This document shows positions 52,229-59,430 of a stretch of DNA of 62,877 bases, piece by piece (the stretch's first letter is position 1; every line of letters begins with the position of its first letter). Source of the stretch: Pseudomonadota bacterium (GTDB lineage: Bacteria > Pseudomonadota > Alphaproteobacteria > UBA828). The notes below the pieces were generated by a model. That model was not told the origin of the DNA, did no database searches, and worked only from the letters and a program-made list of their open reading frames with translations. The translations under genes and the position numbers were made by a program. The DNA lies in contig JAQBTG010000018.1 in NCBI GenBank assembly GCA_027624955.1, positions 1-62,877 of the forward strand, in the 5' to 3' direction.

Positions 52229-52804
52229 ATGTCCAAATTGAACGGTTTGGTGCTAGGCTGGCTCATGTTTGGCTATTCAAGCTTTTCCGCCTACCGGGCG
52301 GGTATGGTCGGGGCTGCAGCCGCGGCCGTCACAATGCTGGCGCTTCTAACGCAAGCCGCCATGCCAGCTGCGGCGCAGGATATCGCCGGCCAGGCACAGG
52401 TTATCGACGGCGATACGATCGTCATCGAAGGTCAAGTCATCGACCTTTTCGGCATCGACGCGCCCGAGCTAGATTTTAACGGCCGCGAACAAATCTGTTT
52501 TAGGGACGGTCACCCTTACCGCTGCGCGCTGATCGCCGCCGGCAGGCTGGCCGAAAAGATCGCCGGCCGTACGGTTTCATGCGAAGGCCATTCGACCAAC
52601 GCCGAGGGCCGGCTGATGGCCTCCTGCTTTATCAAAAAGCGCGAAAACCTTAGCGGCTGGCTGGTCAATAAGGGCTTTGTCGTAATCGACAGCCGCTACA
52701 GCAGTGAATTTGAGGATTGGGAGATTTGGAACACGGGATCTGGGACCGGCTTGTGGTCCGGGCAGTTCGAGCTGCCTTGGCTATGGCGCGCGCAAAACGA
52801 ATAG
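52229..52804 (+). CDS. Secreted thermonuclease (SNase)-like protein
   Basis: 191 residues with a membrane-spanning signal/anchor (about 25-47) ending AAAQ, then the SNase fold: VIDGDTIVIEGQVIDLFGID (catalytic Asp), RCALIAAGRLAEKIAGRTV, EGRLMASCFI and LSGWLVNKGFVV. The catalytic Arg of the family (usually YGR in EYGRxLA) is not cleanly seen, so activity is uncertain. Next gene 24 bp on is a Sel1-like protein. Confidence 0.85.
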   Translation: MSKLNGLVLGWLMFGYSSFSAYRAGMVGAAAAAVTMLALLTQAAMPAAAQDIAGQAQVIDGDTIVIEGQVIDLFGIDAPELDFNGREQICFRDGHPYRCALIAAGRLAEKIAGRTVSCEGHSTNAEGRLMASCFIKKRENLSGWLVNKGFVVIDSRYSSEFEDWEIWNTGSGTGLWSGQFELPWLWRAQNE

Positions 52805-53200: not shown

Positions 53201-53428
53201 AGGCGGCGAGCAGCCTGGCCGCGAGAGATTATCCAACTGAAGAGCGTCGGGCGTGCGGCCGCAGCTCGTGAAACCGATGCAACGCCGAAGTGACGCTCTA
53301 AGCGACTTTCCCGGGTAATCACCACTTTATTAGCGATTGGTAAACCCTTAAGCTGCTCATATATAGAGACCCCAGGTTTTGAATTATTAGAACTATCAGA
53401 AAACGTAAAACTTGATGTTCGGACCTTG

Positions 53429-55849
53429 ATGACGCGTGCCAACAAGCCAGTTCAGCGCCCGGCAAAAGACGCATCTAGTGCGGCGAAGTCGCATGGCGCG
53501 TATCTTGATGGGACACAAGAGTCGGAGGCACAGTTCGCGGAACGCTTCGACTTAGTCTTATGGGCAACCAGTACCGAAGTCTGGGATTGGGATATAGAGC
53601 GCAAGCTGCTCTGGAGTAAGTCCCGCAAGCAACCTCTTCATGGCGAAGGCGACACCGAAACCACGCGGCATTTCGATATAGACGATGCTGAAGAGGTGTG
53701 GGCGAAGCGCCTGCATCCCGAGGACCGGGAGCGTGTATTGCAAAGCATTCGCGCGCATCTCGATCACAACGACCCGTTTGACGTCGAATATCGCCAACGC
53801 CAATTGAATGACGACTACATGTGGGTGCGTAGTGTCGGGCGGGCGGTCCGCGACGCCGATGGCAGTCCGGTGCGCATGGTGGGAACGCATAGCGACATCA
53901 CCACACAAAAACTGGCCGAGATCGAAAAACAGCAATTGCGCGACGCGGTGGACAGCGCGTCGGAAGGCATTGTTCTCTTTGATGCGGATGAGCGTTTCGT
54001 TTACGCCAACAAAAGATATCGCGAACTTTTTCCCCGAATCGGACAATTCCTGGTGCCGGGCACGCCACGCGACAATATTCGCCGGGCATATTTTGCGATC
54101 GGCGCGATGACCGCGACCGTCGGCAGTGTGGACGATTATATTCTCGAAGTGCGCCAGCACATTGACGCCGGCGAGGCGTCCGAGGTTTGCCTCACCAACG
54201 GCACCTGGCTTAAACGCAGCGACCACGTCCTACCGACCGGCTACGCTGTCAGCATTCGTACCGACATCACGGCAATGAAGGAGCGCGAGGAAGCGCTTGG
54301 CGCCAGTGAAAAGCGCTACCGAAGCCTGGTGGAGGACCAGCCCGAATTCGTCTGCCGCTACAAGCCGGACGGCAGCCTGCTGTTTTCGAACGCAGCTTAT
54401 GCCAAGCAATGCGGCTTCGATCTTGAAGACATCAGCGGGATAAATATTTTCGATTTCGTGCCGCCGGAAGAGGTCGCGGCGCTCAAGCGTTATGTCGCCA
54501 GCCTGGGGCCGGACAAGCCGTTCGCCACGGTCGAGCACCGCTTGGACTTGCAAGACGGCTCGGTGCGCTGGCAGGAGTGGAGCGATAGAGCCTTCTTCGA
54601 TGAATCGGGCCGCGTGTTCGAGTTTCAGGCGTTCGGCCGCGACGTGACGGACCGCAAAATCGCGGAAGAGGAATTGCGAAAGAACGAAGCGAGCCTGACC
54701 GAAGCACAAGAGACCGCCAATGTCGGCAGCTGGTCCCTAGAAATCGAGGACCAGAATCAAATGCGCACGCTGTGGTCGGCGCAGCTATGCCGCATATTTG
54801 GTATCGAGCCAGATTCGGTGCCACAAGAATTTGATGCCTATATGCAGTATACGCATGCCGATGATCGCGAGCTGGTTGGGCGTAGGTGGACGCATTCGCT
54901 GAAAACCGGAGAGCCCTACGATTTGGAACACCGAATTGTCTGGCCCGACGGGCAAATACGCCACGTCCATACGCGCGCGCGCGCGATGAAGGATCAGTTT
55001 CACCACACCACTCGGTGGAGCGGCGCCAGGGTCGATATTACGTACCGGATCGAGGCCGAGCGCGAGATTCTGGAAGCGAAGGAGCGTGCCGAATTCGCCG
55101 ATCAGCAAAAATCTGAATTCCTGGCCAATATGAGCCACGAATTGAGAACGCCGCTGAACGCAATCCTTGGCTTTTCCCAGATGATGGAGACAGAGATTTT
55201 TGGGCCGCTGGGCGACGCGCACTACGAAGGCTATGTCACCGATATCCTTTACAGCGGCCGGCATTTGCTCTCCCTGATTGACGATATTCTCGACCTCAGC
55301 CGGATCGAAGCGGGCAAGGCGGAGTTCCACGAAACGGAAGTCGATCTCGGCACGACGATCGAACGCTGCACGCACATGATGACGGTTAATATTCGCCAGG
55401 CCGAGCTCGTGTTGGATGTTGAACTTGGCACCGAGTTGCCGCTTCTCAGGGGCGACGCGCGAGCGCTCGATCAGATCGTTCTCAATCTGCTGTCCAACGC
55501 GCTCAAATTCACCCCTGCCGGCGGCCGCATCACTGTGGCAGCGCGGCTTTCTGACACTGGCTGTCTCGCTCTCTCGGTGCGCGATACCGGGGTCGGCATC
55601 AAATCCAGCGACATTCCGCGCGTGCTATCGCGTTTTGGCCGGGTCAATAGCGCCGACAACCGCAAGATCGCCGGCACCGGATTAGGCCTGCAACTGGTTG
55701 ATGCTCTCGCCCAGTTGCATGACGGCGAACTCAAGCTCGACAGCGAGTTCGGTGTCGGCACCACCGTCTCGGTGCTGTTTCCGAAATCGCGTGTCATTCC
55801 GCTCCCTTCCGGCTTGCGCAAACGCCCCGACGGCGGCGCGGCCGGATGA
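53429..55849 (+). CDS. Multi-PAS soluble sensor histidine kinase
   Basis: About 806 residues (TTG 53426 or ATG 53429 start). Four PAS-type sensor modules, each with PAC tail, occupy about 30-525 (for example WVRSVGRAVRDADGSPVRMV and EFQAFGRDVTDRKIAEEEL). The HisKA domain has the H-box MSHELRTPLNAILGFSQMME with the phosphoacceptor His near residue 570. HATPase: N-box NLLSNALKFTPAGG, G1 DTGVGI, G2 GTGLGLQLV. No membrane segment, so it senses a cytoplasmic signal. No response regulator is adjacent, so an orphan kinase. Confidence 0.93.
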   Translation: MTRANKPVQRPAKDASSAAKSHGAYLDGTQESEAQFAERFDLVLWATSTEVWDWDIERKLLWSKSRKQPLHGEGDTETTRHFDIDDAEEVWAKRLHPEDRERVLQSIRAHLDHNDPFDVEYRQRQLNDDYMWVRSVGRAVRDADGSPVRMVGTHSDITTQKLAEIEKQQLRDAVDSASEGIVLFDADERFVYANKRYRELFPRIGQFLVPGTPRDNIRRAYFAIGAMTATVGSVDDYILEVRQHIDAGEASEVCLTNGTWLKRSDHVLPTGYAVSIRTDITAMKEREEALGASEKRYRSLVEDQPEFVCRYKPDGSLLFSNAAYAKQCGFDLEDISGINIFDFVPPEEVAALKRYVASLGPDKPFATVEHRLDLQDGSVRWQEWSDRAFFDESGRVFEFQAFGRDVTDRKIAEEELRKNEASLTEAQETANVGSWSLEIEDQNQMRTLWSAQLCRIFGIEPDSVPQEFDAYMQYTHADDRELVGRRWTHSLKTGEPYDLEHRIVWPDGQIRHVHTRARAMKDQFHHTTRWSGARVDITYRIEAEREILEAKERAEFADQQKSEFLANMSHELRTPLNAILGFSQMMETEIFGPLGDAHYEGYVTDILYSGRHLLSLIDDILDLSRIEAGKAEFHETEVDLGTTIERCTHMMTVNIRQAELVLDVELGTELPLLRGDARALDQIVLNLLSNALKFTPAGGRITVAARLSDTGCLALSVRDTGVGIKSSDIPRVLSRFGRVNSADNRKIAGTGLGLQLVDALAQLHDGELKLDSEFGVGTTVSVLFPKSRVIPLPSGLRKRPDGGAAG

Positions 55850-55924
55850 GCGCGCAGGAGATTATGAAGTGGCGCAGAGGGCTTGGCGGCGCCGTAGAAT
55901 TGACCGCAGTAACTAGGCCATCCC

Positions 55925-56641
55925 TTAAATCAAGGACCCGCCGCCATCTATGGTGAGGCAGCTTCCCGTCACGTAACCCGTCTCCATCATAAAGATCACG
56001 GCGGCGGCAGCTTCCTCAGGGCGGCCGATGCGGCCAACCAACAGCCGCGCTTCGAGATCGGCGACCACGGCAGCCCGTTGATCGCCGAGTACATCATCGA
56101 GAAACGGGGTGTCGAAGAAGCCGGCGCGAAGCGCATTTACCCGGATCGGCGCGAAATCGACAGCGAGCCCACGCATCAAGCCCTCGATGGCTCCACAGGA
56201 TGCCGATGACATCGATGTGCCTGGGATGGGGCGCACGCTGGCGGTACCCGACATCAGCGTGATCGAGCTCGTCGCGCTCATTTTCGCCAACGCATATTTC
56301 GTCGCGTGCAGCGCGGCGTTCAAGCGCGTGTCGACCGGGCCGCGCAACGCGCCCATTGCCGGTTCAAGATGGTGATCAGCGACATAGGTGCCAATCGTCA
56401 CGAACAGATGATCGATGCGATCACGGCTTTCCAGGAATGCCTTCATCGCCGCCTCGTCGAGCGCATCGACGGCGACCGTCTCCAAGCCGTCGCCAAGCTC
56501 TGATTGTATCGCACGTAGTCGCTCCGGCGACCGGCCGGTAACGGCGACTTGCGCGCCCTTCGCGAGCGCCGCTCGCGCGGTCGCTAGCCCGAGCCCGGAG
56601 CTACCGCCGATAATGACCACGTTGGTTCCTTGTAAGCTCAT
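55925..56641 (-). CDS. Short-chain dehydrogenase-family protein with degenerate catalytic motif
   Basis: 238 residues from the ATG at 56641, preceded by GGGGTGAAGAG. Cofactor motif VVIIGGSSGLGLATARAA is intact, and the C-terminal VNALRAGFFDTPF and GSCLTIDGGG are SDR. The active-site YxxxK is replaced: the aligned stretch reads SSASCGAIEGLMRGL, with Ser and Cys where Tyr and Lys should be. Divergent SDR groups without YxxxK are known. It may be a binding or structural protein, or use a different catalytic residue. Confidence 0.8.
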   Translation of the reverse strand: MSLQGTNVVIIGGSSGLGLATARAALAKGAQVAVTGRSPERLRAIQSELGDGLETVAVDALDEAAMKAFLESRDRIDHLFVTIGTYVADHHLEPAMGALRGPVDTRLNAALHATKYALAKMSATSSITLMSGTASVRPIPGTSMSSASCGAIEGLMRGLAVDFAPIRVNALRAGFFDTPFLDDVLGDQRAAVVADLEARLLVGRIGRPEEAAAAVIFMMETGYVTGSCLTIDGGGSLI

Positions 56642-56732
56642 CTCTTCACCCCCTGTTATCTCCGCTTGGGAGAAACTTACTATCTCGGCAACGATGTTGG
56701 CGACAAATAGGTTTTTCGACCCGAGCAGGACC
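56626..56732 (-). repeat. Duplicated leader block, copy R1 (upstream of the SDR)
   Basis: A 107-bp block running from the SDR start to its leader is repeated at 58168-58274 at roughly 75-80% identity. Shared anchor sequences on the plus strand include CTTGGCGACAAAT / TTGGCGACAAAT, CTTACTAT and TTCCTTGxAAGCTC. Confidence 0.85.
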
Positions 56733-56780
56733 AGGCTGATAATTATCGTATGGCCGGGCGTGCCTTGCATCGGTGTGGGT

Positions 56781-56857
56781 TGGACGGAGCGAGAGGGTTT
56801 AAACCTCGGGCTCCTGCTTCGTAAGAACCGTTCTCTACCACGCTCGGACACATGCCA
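56781..56857 (-). pseudogene. Decayed tRNA-Pro-like copy
   Basis: On the plus strand this matches the tRNA-Pro gene at 58325-58401 at about two thirds of positions without gaps over roughly 60 bases: TGGxCGGAG, GAGAGG, AACCTC, GG, CCTGC, and CTCTACCA are shared. The acceptor and anticodon stems no longer pair. It lies about 48 bp beyond block R1, the same spacing that separates block R2 from the intact tRNA. Confidence 0.75.
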
Positions 56858-56893
56858 GCCAGGCGAGACCGGCCGGCTCGGGTATAGGATTCT

Positions 56894-58048
56894 TTAGAGC
56901 GTGATATTATCCAAAGGCAGACCGTAGAGCGTGCGTCCGTAGCTCTTGAAATTTGGGTCCTTGTTCTGGGTGAAGTGCTGATTGGCGACGATGAGATCGG
57001 TATAGAGGCCGCCGAGCACGCTAGAATTTAGAACGCTGAGGGCGCCCGAGAGATCCCACACGGTCTTAGCCGAATCCATCGCTGTGTTGCCGGCGAACGT
57101 CGCCAACGCTCGGCAGCGCGCACGCTCCAAATCGGTGGGTGTGCGCGCCTCCTCGGTCGCGATGGCGAAAAATTCGTCGGCGGCGAAGCGGAGGATTTCA
57201 GCCGCGCTGTCAGCGGCGCATTTGGCCTCAGCAAATTTGATTTGCTGCGATGAAAAATCGGCAACCCGCTGTTCGCTCATCACCGACGCTTTCTTACTGA
57301 CGATGGCGTTGTATTCAGCGGCTATTTCCCGCGCGATGCCGACGGCGCCGCTGGTGATTCCCAGGCCAAAAATAGAATAGCTCGGCAACAGATAAAGCGG
57401 ATTGTCGCGCCACTGCCCGCCCGGTGATTCTCCACCGCGCAGCTCGGCCATCGTGAGCGATAGATAGCTCGGAACGAATATTTGTTTCATTTCAACGTCA
57501 TTGGTGCCGCTGCCTTTGAGACCAATGGCGTACCAGGTATCGAGGATGGTGAGCTGTTCGCGCGGGAGCAAAAAATGGCGGTGCGTCTCGGGGCCAGGAT
57601 TGTCTTTTTCATAGGCGGTGACGATGCACCAATCGCAAGTATCGACTCCCGTCACCCATTGCCAACGACCACTCACTGAAAAACCGCCGTCCTTCACCTC
57701 GTAGCTGCCCATACTGGGGACGAGGATGCCGGCGACCAGAGCTTTCGGATCTTTCCCCCAGACCGCCTCGCGGCCTTCATCCGGCCACTGCGAAACCATG
57801 TAATTGTGCAGGATATACTGGGCGATGACCCAGCCGCTCGAGCCGCAAGCCGCGCCGATCTGGGTGAGCGCCTCAACGATATCCCGCAACGGACCGCCTG
57901 CCCCGCCATGGCTGCGCGGCTGAAGAATTCGCGCGACGCCCGATTCACGGACGCTGTCACGGATCTCGGGCAGCATCTTCCGGTTTGCACGTGTCTCGGC
58001 GCGCCGGTTTCTGAGCTGTTGGTACAGCGGTTCAAAATCTACCGGCAT
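56894..58048 (-). CDS. Acyl-CoA-dehydrogenase-fold flavin monooxygenase (HsaA/HpaB-C2 type)
   Basis: 384 residues from the ATG at 58048 (MPVDFEPLYQQLRNRRAET). It matches the flavin-dependent monooxygenase branch of the acyl-CoA dehydrogenase fold: RILQPRSHGGAGGPLRDIV, GSSGWVIAQYILHNYMVSQW, FSVSGRWQWVTGVDTCDW, and GIGLKGSGTNDVEMKQIFVP. Members hydroxylate phenols or steroids with a partner flavin reductase. It lies between the two diverged copies of the tRNA-Pro/leader block. Confidence 0.88.
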   Translation of the reverse strand: MPVDFEPLYQQLRNRRAETRANRKMLPEIRDSVRESGVARILQPRSHGGAGGPLRDIVEALTQIGAACGSSGWVIAQYILHNYMVSQWPDEGREAVWGKDPKALVAGILVPSMGSYEVKDGGFSVSGRWQWVTGVDTCDWCIVTAYEKDNPGPETHRHFLLPREQLTILDTWYAIGLKGSGTNDVEMKQIFVPSYLSLTMAELRGGESPGGQWRDNPLYLLPSYSIFGLGITSGAVGIAREIAAEYNAIVSKKASVMSEQRVADFSSQQIKFAEAKCAADSAAEILRFAADEFFAIATEEARTPTDLERARCRALATFAGNTAMDSAKTVWDLSGALSVLNSSVLGGLYTDLIVANQHFTQNKDPNFKSYGRTLYGLPLDNITL

Positions 58049-58129
58049 CCGACACACTCCAATTCGAACCAAACTTTGACTTGGGCCACGACAACAATCC
58101 GTTTAGTTCATTGAGCAAATTGGATGGTG

Positions 58130-58186
58130 AGAGACAGACAAATCGGCGCCAACTATGACCCATCTCATTCCTTGCAAGCTCGTCAT
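58130..58186 (-). pseudogene. Fossil start of a second SDR gene
   Basis: On the minus strand from 58186 the sequence reads ATG then TSLQGMRWVIVGADLS. This parallels the SDR start SLQGTNVVIIGGSSG about 1.5 kb away, including the Rossmann motif. It then diverges and ends in a stop within 30 codons. It marks the truncated end of a duplicated SDR gene. Confidence 0.7.
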
Positions 58187-58274
58187 TTCGCCCCCCTGTT
58201 TTCTGCGCCTGGCAGAAGCTTACTATTTCGGCGATGGCCTTGGCGACAAATGGGTTGTCGGTCCGAGCCGGACC
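58168..58274 (-). repeat. Duplicated leader block, copy R2
   Basis: The partner of block R1 (56626-56732). It lies between the intact tRNA-Pro gene and the fossil SDR start, upstream of the monooxygenase gene on the minus strand. Confidence 0.85.
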
Positions 58275-58324
58275 TTGCAGGAAACCTTGGCATAGTGGGG
58301 AGGACTTGGCGTCGCCGCAAAAAA

Positions 58325-58401
58325 TGGTCGGAGTGAGAGGATTCGAACCTCCGGCCCCTGCCTCCCGAAGGCAGTGCTCTACCAGGCTGAGCTACACTCC
58401 G
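58325..58401 (-). tRNA. tRNA-Pro (CGG anticodon)
   Basis: 77 nt including encoded CCA. Acceptor stem CGGAGTG/CACTCCG with discriminator A, D arm GCTC...GAGC, anticodon stem CTGCC/GGCAG with loop TTCGGGA (anticodon CGG), T arm GAGG-TTCGAAT-CCTC. All arms pair by eye. Confidence 0.96.
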
Positions 58402-58499: not shown

Positions 58500-59417
58500 T
58501 TAGAATTCATGATCGCGCAGCCATTCGGCATAGGCCCGCACGCCTTTGTCGAGCGGCCAATTGGGGCGCCAGCCGAGAACGGCGGCTGCGGCCGATAGAT
58601 CCATCGGCGCGTGATGCATGTCAGCGCCGGTGCTGCCTTGGTTGACGATCTCCGCCGCCGGCAGCGCAGCGACCACGGCGGCGGCGATATCCTCAAAGCT
58701 GGCGCGCGTGCCGCCGGTGATGTTAAAGGCGCGCGCGCCGAGTTCAGCGCTGTCATAGGCGGCGATGCAGGCATCGACGACATCCTCGATATAGACATAT
58801 TGGCGCGCAAAGCCGGGACCGAAATCACGCGGGCTGGCGCGCCCGTCAAGGGCATCGCGCAGCAATTCGCGGATCAGGCAGTCGGTGCGCCGGCGCGGGC
58901 CATAGACCCAGGAGAAGCGCAATGCCACGGCATCGAGACCATGCTGCGCGGCATAGGCGCGGGCGAGGATATCGCCGCCAGCCTTGGTCGCACCGTAGAC
59001 ATCGACCGCGTTCAGCGCCACCGCCTCGCTGCAAATCTCGAGGTCCTGGGGGTGCTCGCCATAGGCCGAAGTGGAGGAGCAATAAACCACGCGGCGCAAC
59101 GCCCGCTGGCGCGCCGCTTCGAACACATTGGCGCTGCCCATCAGATTGGATTCGACGATCGCGCGCGGATTGTCGGTGAGCAGCATCGGCCCCGAGACGG
59201 CACCGCAATGGATGATCCCCGTGGCACCGCGGTCGAGCGCTTCATAGAGCTTGTGCACGTCAGCCAAATCGGCGGCGATGAAGGGAAATTCAAAATCCTC
59301 CGGCGGCGCAACGCGGTCCATGCCGATCACTGCCCGGCCCTCCGCGTGCAGCCGCGCCGCCACGGTAAAACCGATCAACCCGGCAGCGCCGGTCACCACT
59401 ATCGCATCGTCCGCCAT
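58500..59417 (-). CDS. NAD-dependent epimerase/dehydratase (extended SDR)
   Basis: 305 residues from the ATG at 59417 with GAGG upstream; the upstream open frame is not family sequence. IVVTGAAGLIGFTVAARLHA, CSSTSAYGEHP with the catalytic Ser and VYGATKAGGD with Tyr/Lys, and FARQYVYIEDVVDACIAAY. Typical of nucleotide-sugar epimerases but the substrate is unknown. Ends near the tRNA-Pro gene and is 14 bp from the prenyl synthase gene. Confidence 0.9.
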   Translation of the reverse strand: MADDAIVVTGAAGLIGFTVAARLHAEGRAVIGMDRVAPPEDFEFPFIAADLADVHKLYEALDRGATGIIHCGAVSGPMLLTDNPRAIVESNLMGSANVFEAARQRALRRVVYCSSTSAYGEHPQDLEICSEAVALNAVDVYGATKAGGDILARAYAAQHGLDAVALRFSWVYGPRRRTDCLIRELLRDALDGRASPRDFGPGFARQYVYIEDVVDACIAAYDSAELGARAFNITGGTRASFEDIAAAVVAALPAAEIVNQGSTGADMHHAPMDLSAAAAVLGWRPNWPLDKGVRAYAEWLRDHEF

Positions 59418-59430
59418 CACTAATCCTCGC

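Follow-up and report, generated by a model that had tools for sequence, protein, structure and literature searches.

In the window, by which we mean the whole stretch of DNA that was analysed (62,877 nt, positions 1-62,877 of contig JAQBTG010000018.1, assembly GCA_027624955.1, Pseudomonadota bacterium), a unit composed of tRNA-Pro(CGG), a leader and the first codons of a short-chain dehydrogenase (SDR) gene is present twice, and this repeat is real rather than a product of chance. We propose that the locus probably records the capture of cargo at an integration hotspot, the tRNA-Pro(CGG) gene, together with a tandem duplication of the tRNA-leader-SDR unit, one of the two SDRs having shrunk to a short upstream open reading frame (ORF).

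The duplicated unit

Read along the minus strand, the locus starts with an NAD-dependent epimerase gene (58500..59420, Pfam Epimerase 2.3e-42), which is the upstream neighbour of the tRNA and the left anchor of the site. It is followed by the intact tRNA-Pro(CGG) (58325..58401, ARAGORN and Rfam RF00005, 66 bits), spacer S2 (58266..58324), leader R2 (58187..58265), an ORF of 27 codons (58103..58186) and a flavin monooxygenase of the acyl-CoA dehydrogenase fold (56894..58048, Pfam Acyl-CoA_dh_2 4.8e-14). Then come a decayed full-length copy of tRNA-Pro (56781..56857), spacer S1 (56722..56780, assigned by its position and a weak alignment with S2), leader R1 (56642..56721) and the intact SDR (55925..56641, Pfam adh_short_C2 4.5e-31). 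The original prediction had given this order from the intact tRNA to the intact SDR, and on re-reading the window each part lies where it had been placed. About the first dozen codons of the short ORF, MTSLQGMRWVIVG, are an SDR fossil, recognised by alignment to the SDR start.

The two blocks lie on the same strand and are collinear over ~240 bases with few small gaps. Their pairwise alignment against shuffled sequence, the check that had been suggested with the prediction, gives a local score of 107, the maximum in 500 dinucleotide shuffles being 30. Taken part by part, the tRNA copies are identical at 55/76 positions with a score of 30 (shuffled mean 4.1, maximum 11), the leaders match at 69/90 positions with a score of 46 (shuffled maximum 12), and the fossil codons align with the intact SDR start with a score of 15, reached by 0/1000 shuffles. 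Spacers S1 and S2 taken alone show a weak likeness, 58/1000 shuffles being as good. The blocks are two head-to-tail copies of one contiguous segment, which is the arrangement of a tandem duplication.

The tRNA covariance model does not detect the inner tRNA copy at E<=10. Its nearest match in a set of 45 distinct tRNAs, taken from the loci examined, is tRNA-Pro(CGG), and its 5' half is also homologous to that of the intact gene (20/31, 0/5000 shuffles). It is a full-length tRNA that is too decayed for the tRNA model. Since the copy spans the whole tRNA including the 5' half, site-specific integration into the tRNA 3' end would not alone have duplicated it.

The leaders, as read from the sequence, contain promoter-like hexamers, which in R2 are TTGTCG, 16 nt and AATAGT at 58249-58222, followed by a G-rich ribosome-binding stretch, and in R1 are TTGTCG (56706-56701), 16 nt and GATAGT (56684-56679). 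Those of R2 agree with the consensus at 8/12 positions, below the threshold of the promoter scanner, which does not list the hexamers. R1 is 77-79% identical to R2 and 75-80% to a leader in a relative, G001. In the three-way alignment the blocks ATTTGTCGCCAA and ATAGTAAG are invariant and at a constant distance apart in 3/3 leaders. No known RNA family was found in the leader at Rfam gathering scores. Leader R1 likely drives the SDR, and leader R2 the monooxygenase.

Two leader copies are present in the window's genome and one in G001, and no convincing copy was seen in the other relatives searched (G006, G010, G011), whether upstream of the SDR in G006 and G011 or upstream of the monooxygenase in genus g6, of which G010 was the only genome searched, a thin basis for that genus; a widespread repeat was rejected on this count. 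If the leader were a small element, mobile or repeated, that inserted twice independently, its presence at three places in two genomes would agree with this. This origin is nevertheless very improbable, with so few copies in the window's genome and with a repeat that extends into the tRNA on one side and into the SDR codons on the other.

The site between the epimerase and the kinase

On the far side of the SDR lies, on the plus strand, a PAS histidine kinase gene (53426..55849, assigned by Pfam), the native downstream neighbour of the tRNA and the right anchor. Between the two, at ~55910-55851, the tRNA end and spacer recur a third time as a partial copy (55851..55910, minus strand), which is absent from the original prediction. 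By shuffling, the likeness of this stretch to the end of the intact tRNA with its adjoining spacer has p ~0.001 or less. When 3140 stretches on both strands of the whole window were compared, it shared first place with the inner block among matches outside the site itself. The match of its spacer, S3, is strong, with p 0.0005 by shuffling for S2 against the pre-kinase stretch, and its tRNA part, ACTGCGGTCA, is about 10 bases. A tRNA body adjoining the kinase was considered and rejected, as nothing matches past those bases. S1 and S3 compared directly show no resemblance, and each resembles only S2. With this pre-kinase copy, the insert appears to have a repeat at either end, as expected of captured cargo, the tRNA part at the kinase side being short.

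The gene order in relatives, by which the original prediction was also to be checked, shows that epimerase, tRNA-Pro and histidine kinase was the native order before the insert. The epimerase-tRNA-Pro junction is kept in four relatives (G001, G002, G004 and G011), with the contig of G001 ending inside tRNA-Pro and other genes following tRNA-Pro in G004. The kinase, TPR and Pyr_redox genes are grouped in both G001 and G002. In G002 a tRNA-Pro 3' half, beginning at the anticodon loop, immediately precedes the kinase relative, whose stop codon lies about 9 bases beyond the end of this half, and matching TPR and Pyr_redox genes follow. Based on this order, the monooxygenase and the SDR are an insert of 2.4 kb that breaks the conserved arrangement directly downstream of the tRNA, at its 3' end.

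Several side observations concern the same genes. In the window a staphylococcal-nuclease-like gene (52229-52804) lies between the TPR and Pyr_redox genes, which in G001 and G002 are close neighbours with no room for it. In G001, the kinase relative (G001:C391, L129 1312-2520) has an internal stop, is followed by transporter-like sequence and looks broken, and a tRNA-Pro fragment (positions 10-51) is present after an endoribonuclease-like gene (G001:C606, L142 8532-8573). Another tRNA-Pro 3' fragment, again starting at the anticodon loop, is present in G016:C346 (L143 about 2467-2517); the tRNA-Pro gene may serve as a target in another genus too. An integrase was looked for in the fragment upstream of this piece, which gave no Pfam hit.

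In G002 the right end of an integrated element was observed (G002:C269, L141 1-379), where the C-terminus of a tyrosine integrase (Pfam PF00589 7.3e-07) ends about 70 bases before the tRNA-Pro 3' half and the kinase. The intact tRNA-Pro beside the epimerase of G002 is on a different contig. The intact tRNA and the tRNA half have the look of an attL/attR pair, and the two contigs, which are not joined, would then bound one element.

It could be proposed that two related integrative elements were stacked successively at the tRNA-Pro 3' end, each with a leader-SDR beside the point of attachment; the old attachment sites would then be the decayed tRNA and the pre-kinase remnant. The use of the same tRNA by the G002 element with its integrase and tRNA half, the tRNA end and spacer repeated three times in series, and the islands of Dehalococcoides, which are known to be stacked at ssrA with repeated scars of the gene end (PMC3146451), are all consistent with this. 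If this proposal is true, the inner copy should lack the 5' half of the tRNA, since integration at the anticodon or T loop would leave that half uncopied, and this is inconsistent with the homology found there; moreover, the locus is without an integrase. We consider such stacking possible but unlikely. Site-specific stacking would copy the tRNA 3' part only, and tandem duplication is therefore preferred as the better explanation of a second whole tRNA with leader and coding start. The same facts divide the original suggestion that the layout is that of an integrated element: the place is right, since in G002 this tRNA is occupied by an element with an integrase, but for this insert the evidence does not support a simple integrated element, as the search for PF00589 across the window contig gave no match and the copy spans the whole tRNA. 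The suggestion that a tRNA-leader-SDR unit was duplicated and lost the SDR of one copy, by contrast, fits all the findings, the same junction in G001 included.

The cargo and its proposed history

The monooxygenase is closest to the HsaA-type two-component flavin hydroxylases, its nearest solved structures being 2rfq and 3afe, and the SDR is closest to classical dehydrogenases. It is a guess that the two belong to one pathway. Among 385 class genomes at E<=1e-60, the SDR has relatives, besides itself, only in G006 and G011, at 52-53%, and none nearer.

The monooxygenase of G001 (92% identity in amino acids) has the same leader before it, with the SDR fossil in shortened form. There is one such leader-fossil-monooxygenase copy in that assembly, on a broken contig without the tRNA, and neither a tRNA copy nor an SDR was seen after the monooxygenase there, where the assembly is broken. 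With the same junction in G001, the arrangement is either older than the split from G001 or transferred, and not an accident of the window. At four-fold sites the monooxygenases of the window and G001 differ by 0.235, compared with 0.35-0.53 in seven neighbouring genes (p 2e-5, Fisher test with six of the seven pooled), and a horizontal transfer is possible.

It could also be that a cassette of leader, SDR fossil and monooxygenase moved horizontally between lineages and came to lie next to the tRNA when it recombined with a leader-SDR that was already resident. Such a movement would be consistent with the low four-fold-site difference, with the different neighbours of the cassette in G001 and with the start of an IstA-like transposase upstream of it there (read from the translation, Pfam giving only helix-turn-helix matches). 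It leaves the second full tRNA copy unexplained, however, and one gene is a thin basis, on a contig that may be a contaminant of the G001 bin (630 contigs, about 7% contamination); we hold it to be improbable.

In the history that we favour, duplication after capture, the ancestral order epimerase, tRNA-Pro, short spacer and histidine kinase, shown by the relatives, would have been interrupted between the tRNA and the kinase by a leader-SDR gene, probably together with the monooxygenase, and this insertion probably left a copy of the tRNA end and spacer on both sides. A tandem duplication of the unit tRNA-spacer-leader-SDR would have followed, for which ordinary recombination is the most likely cause because the whole tRNA was copied. 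The outer tRNA would have kept its function while the inner one decayed, and the SDR of the first unit would have been lost save for its first codons, the second unit retaining its SDR. In the gap before the monooxygenase, neither an SDR 3' end nor SDR downstream sequence was found above shuffles, and a full SDR there is thus deduced from the first codons alone. The loss would have set the promoter and ribosome-binding site, with the short upstream ORF, before the monooxygenase, and the outcome would be one promoter type for two oxidoreductases on separate transcripts. A further reading, in which the tRNA-anchored promoter is reused in series, rounds of capture and duplication putting the same leader before new cargo as in a simple expression dock, seems to us decidedly improbable.

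Relation to known systems

The evolution of the locus is that of an ordinary genome island, with its steps clearly recorded, and no new kind of system is needed. The way in which cargo at a tRNA hotspot may gain a promoter can be read from it: duplication and loss of one coding region pass the promoter and start region to another gene. The locus also indicates that a decayed tRNA next to an intact one is not necessarily the scar of an attachment site.

Among known systems, the islands at tRNA and tmRNA 3' ends, including the tandem ssrA islands of Dehalococcoides, which are stacked with gene-end repeats (PMC3146451), are alike in having variable cargo directly downstream of the tRNA, gene-end repeats in series between conserved outer anchors, and, in a relative, an integrase element at the corresponding site. 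By contrast, the locus here is very small (2.4 kb) with no integrase left, and its inner repeat is a whole tRNA with promoter and coding start. In Pseudomonas fluorescens, tRNA genes were born through recent tandem duplications of 45-290 kb that were selected for the tRNA (PMC7661048); a tRNA gene copied inside a tandem duplication is common to both cases, whereas the duplication here would be a few kb at most and is old, with a decayed tRNA copy. Finally, non-canonical tRNA gene fragments, i.e. partial tRNAs, remain after integration (PMC9897764), and these too are tRNA-like remnants beside an intact gene, but the remnant described here is of full length.
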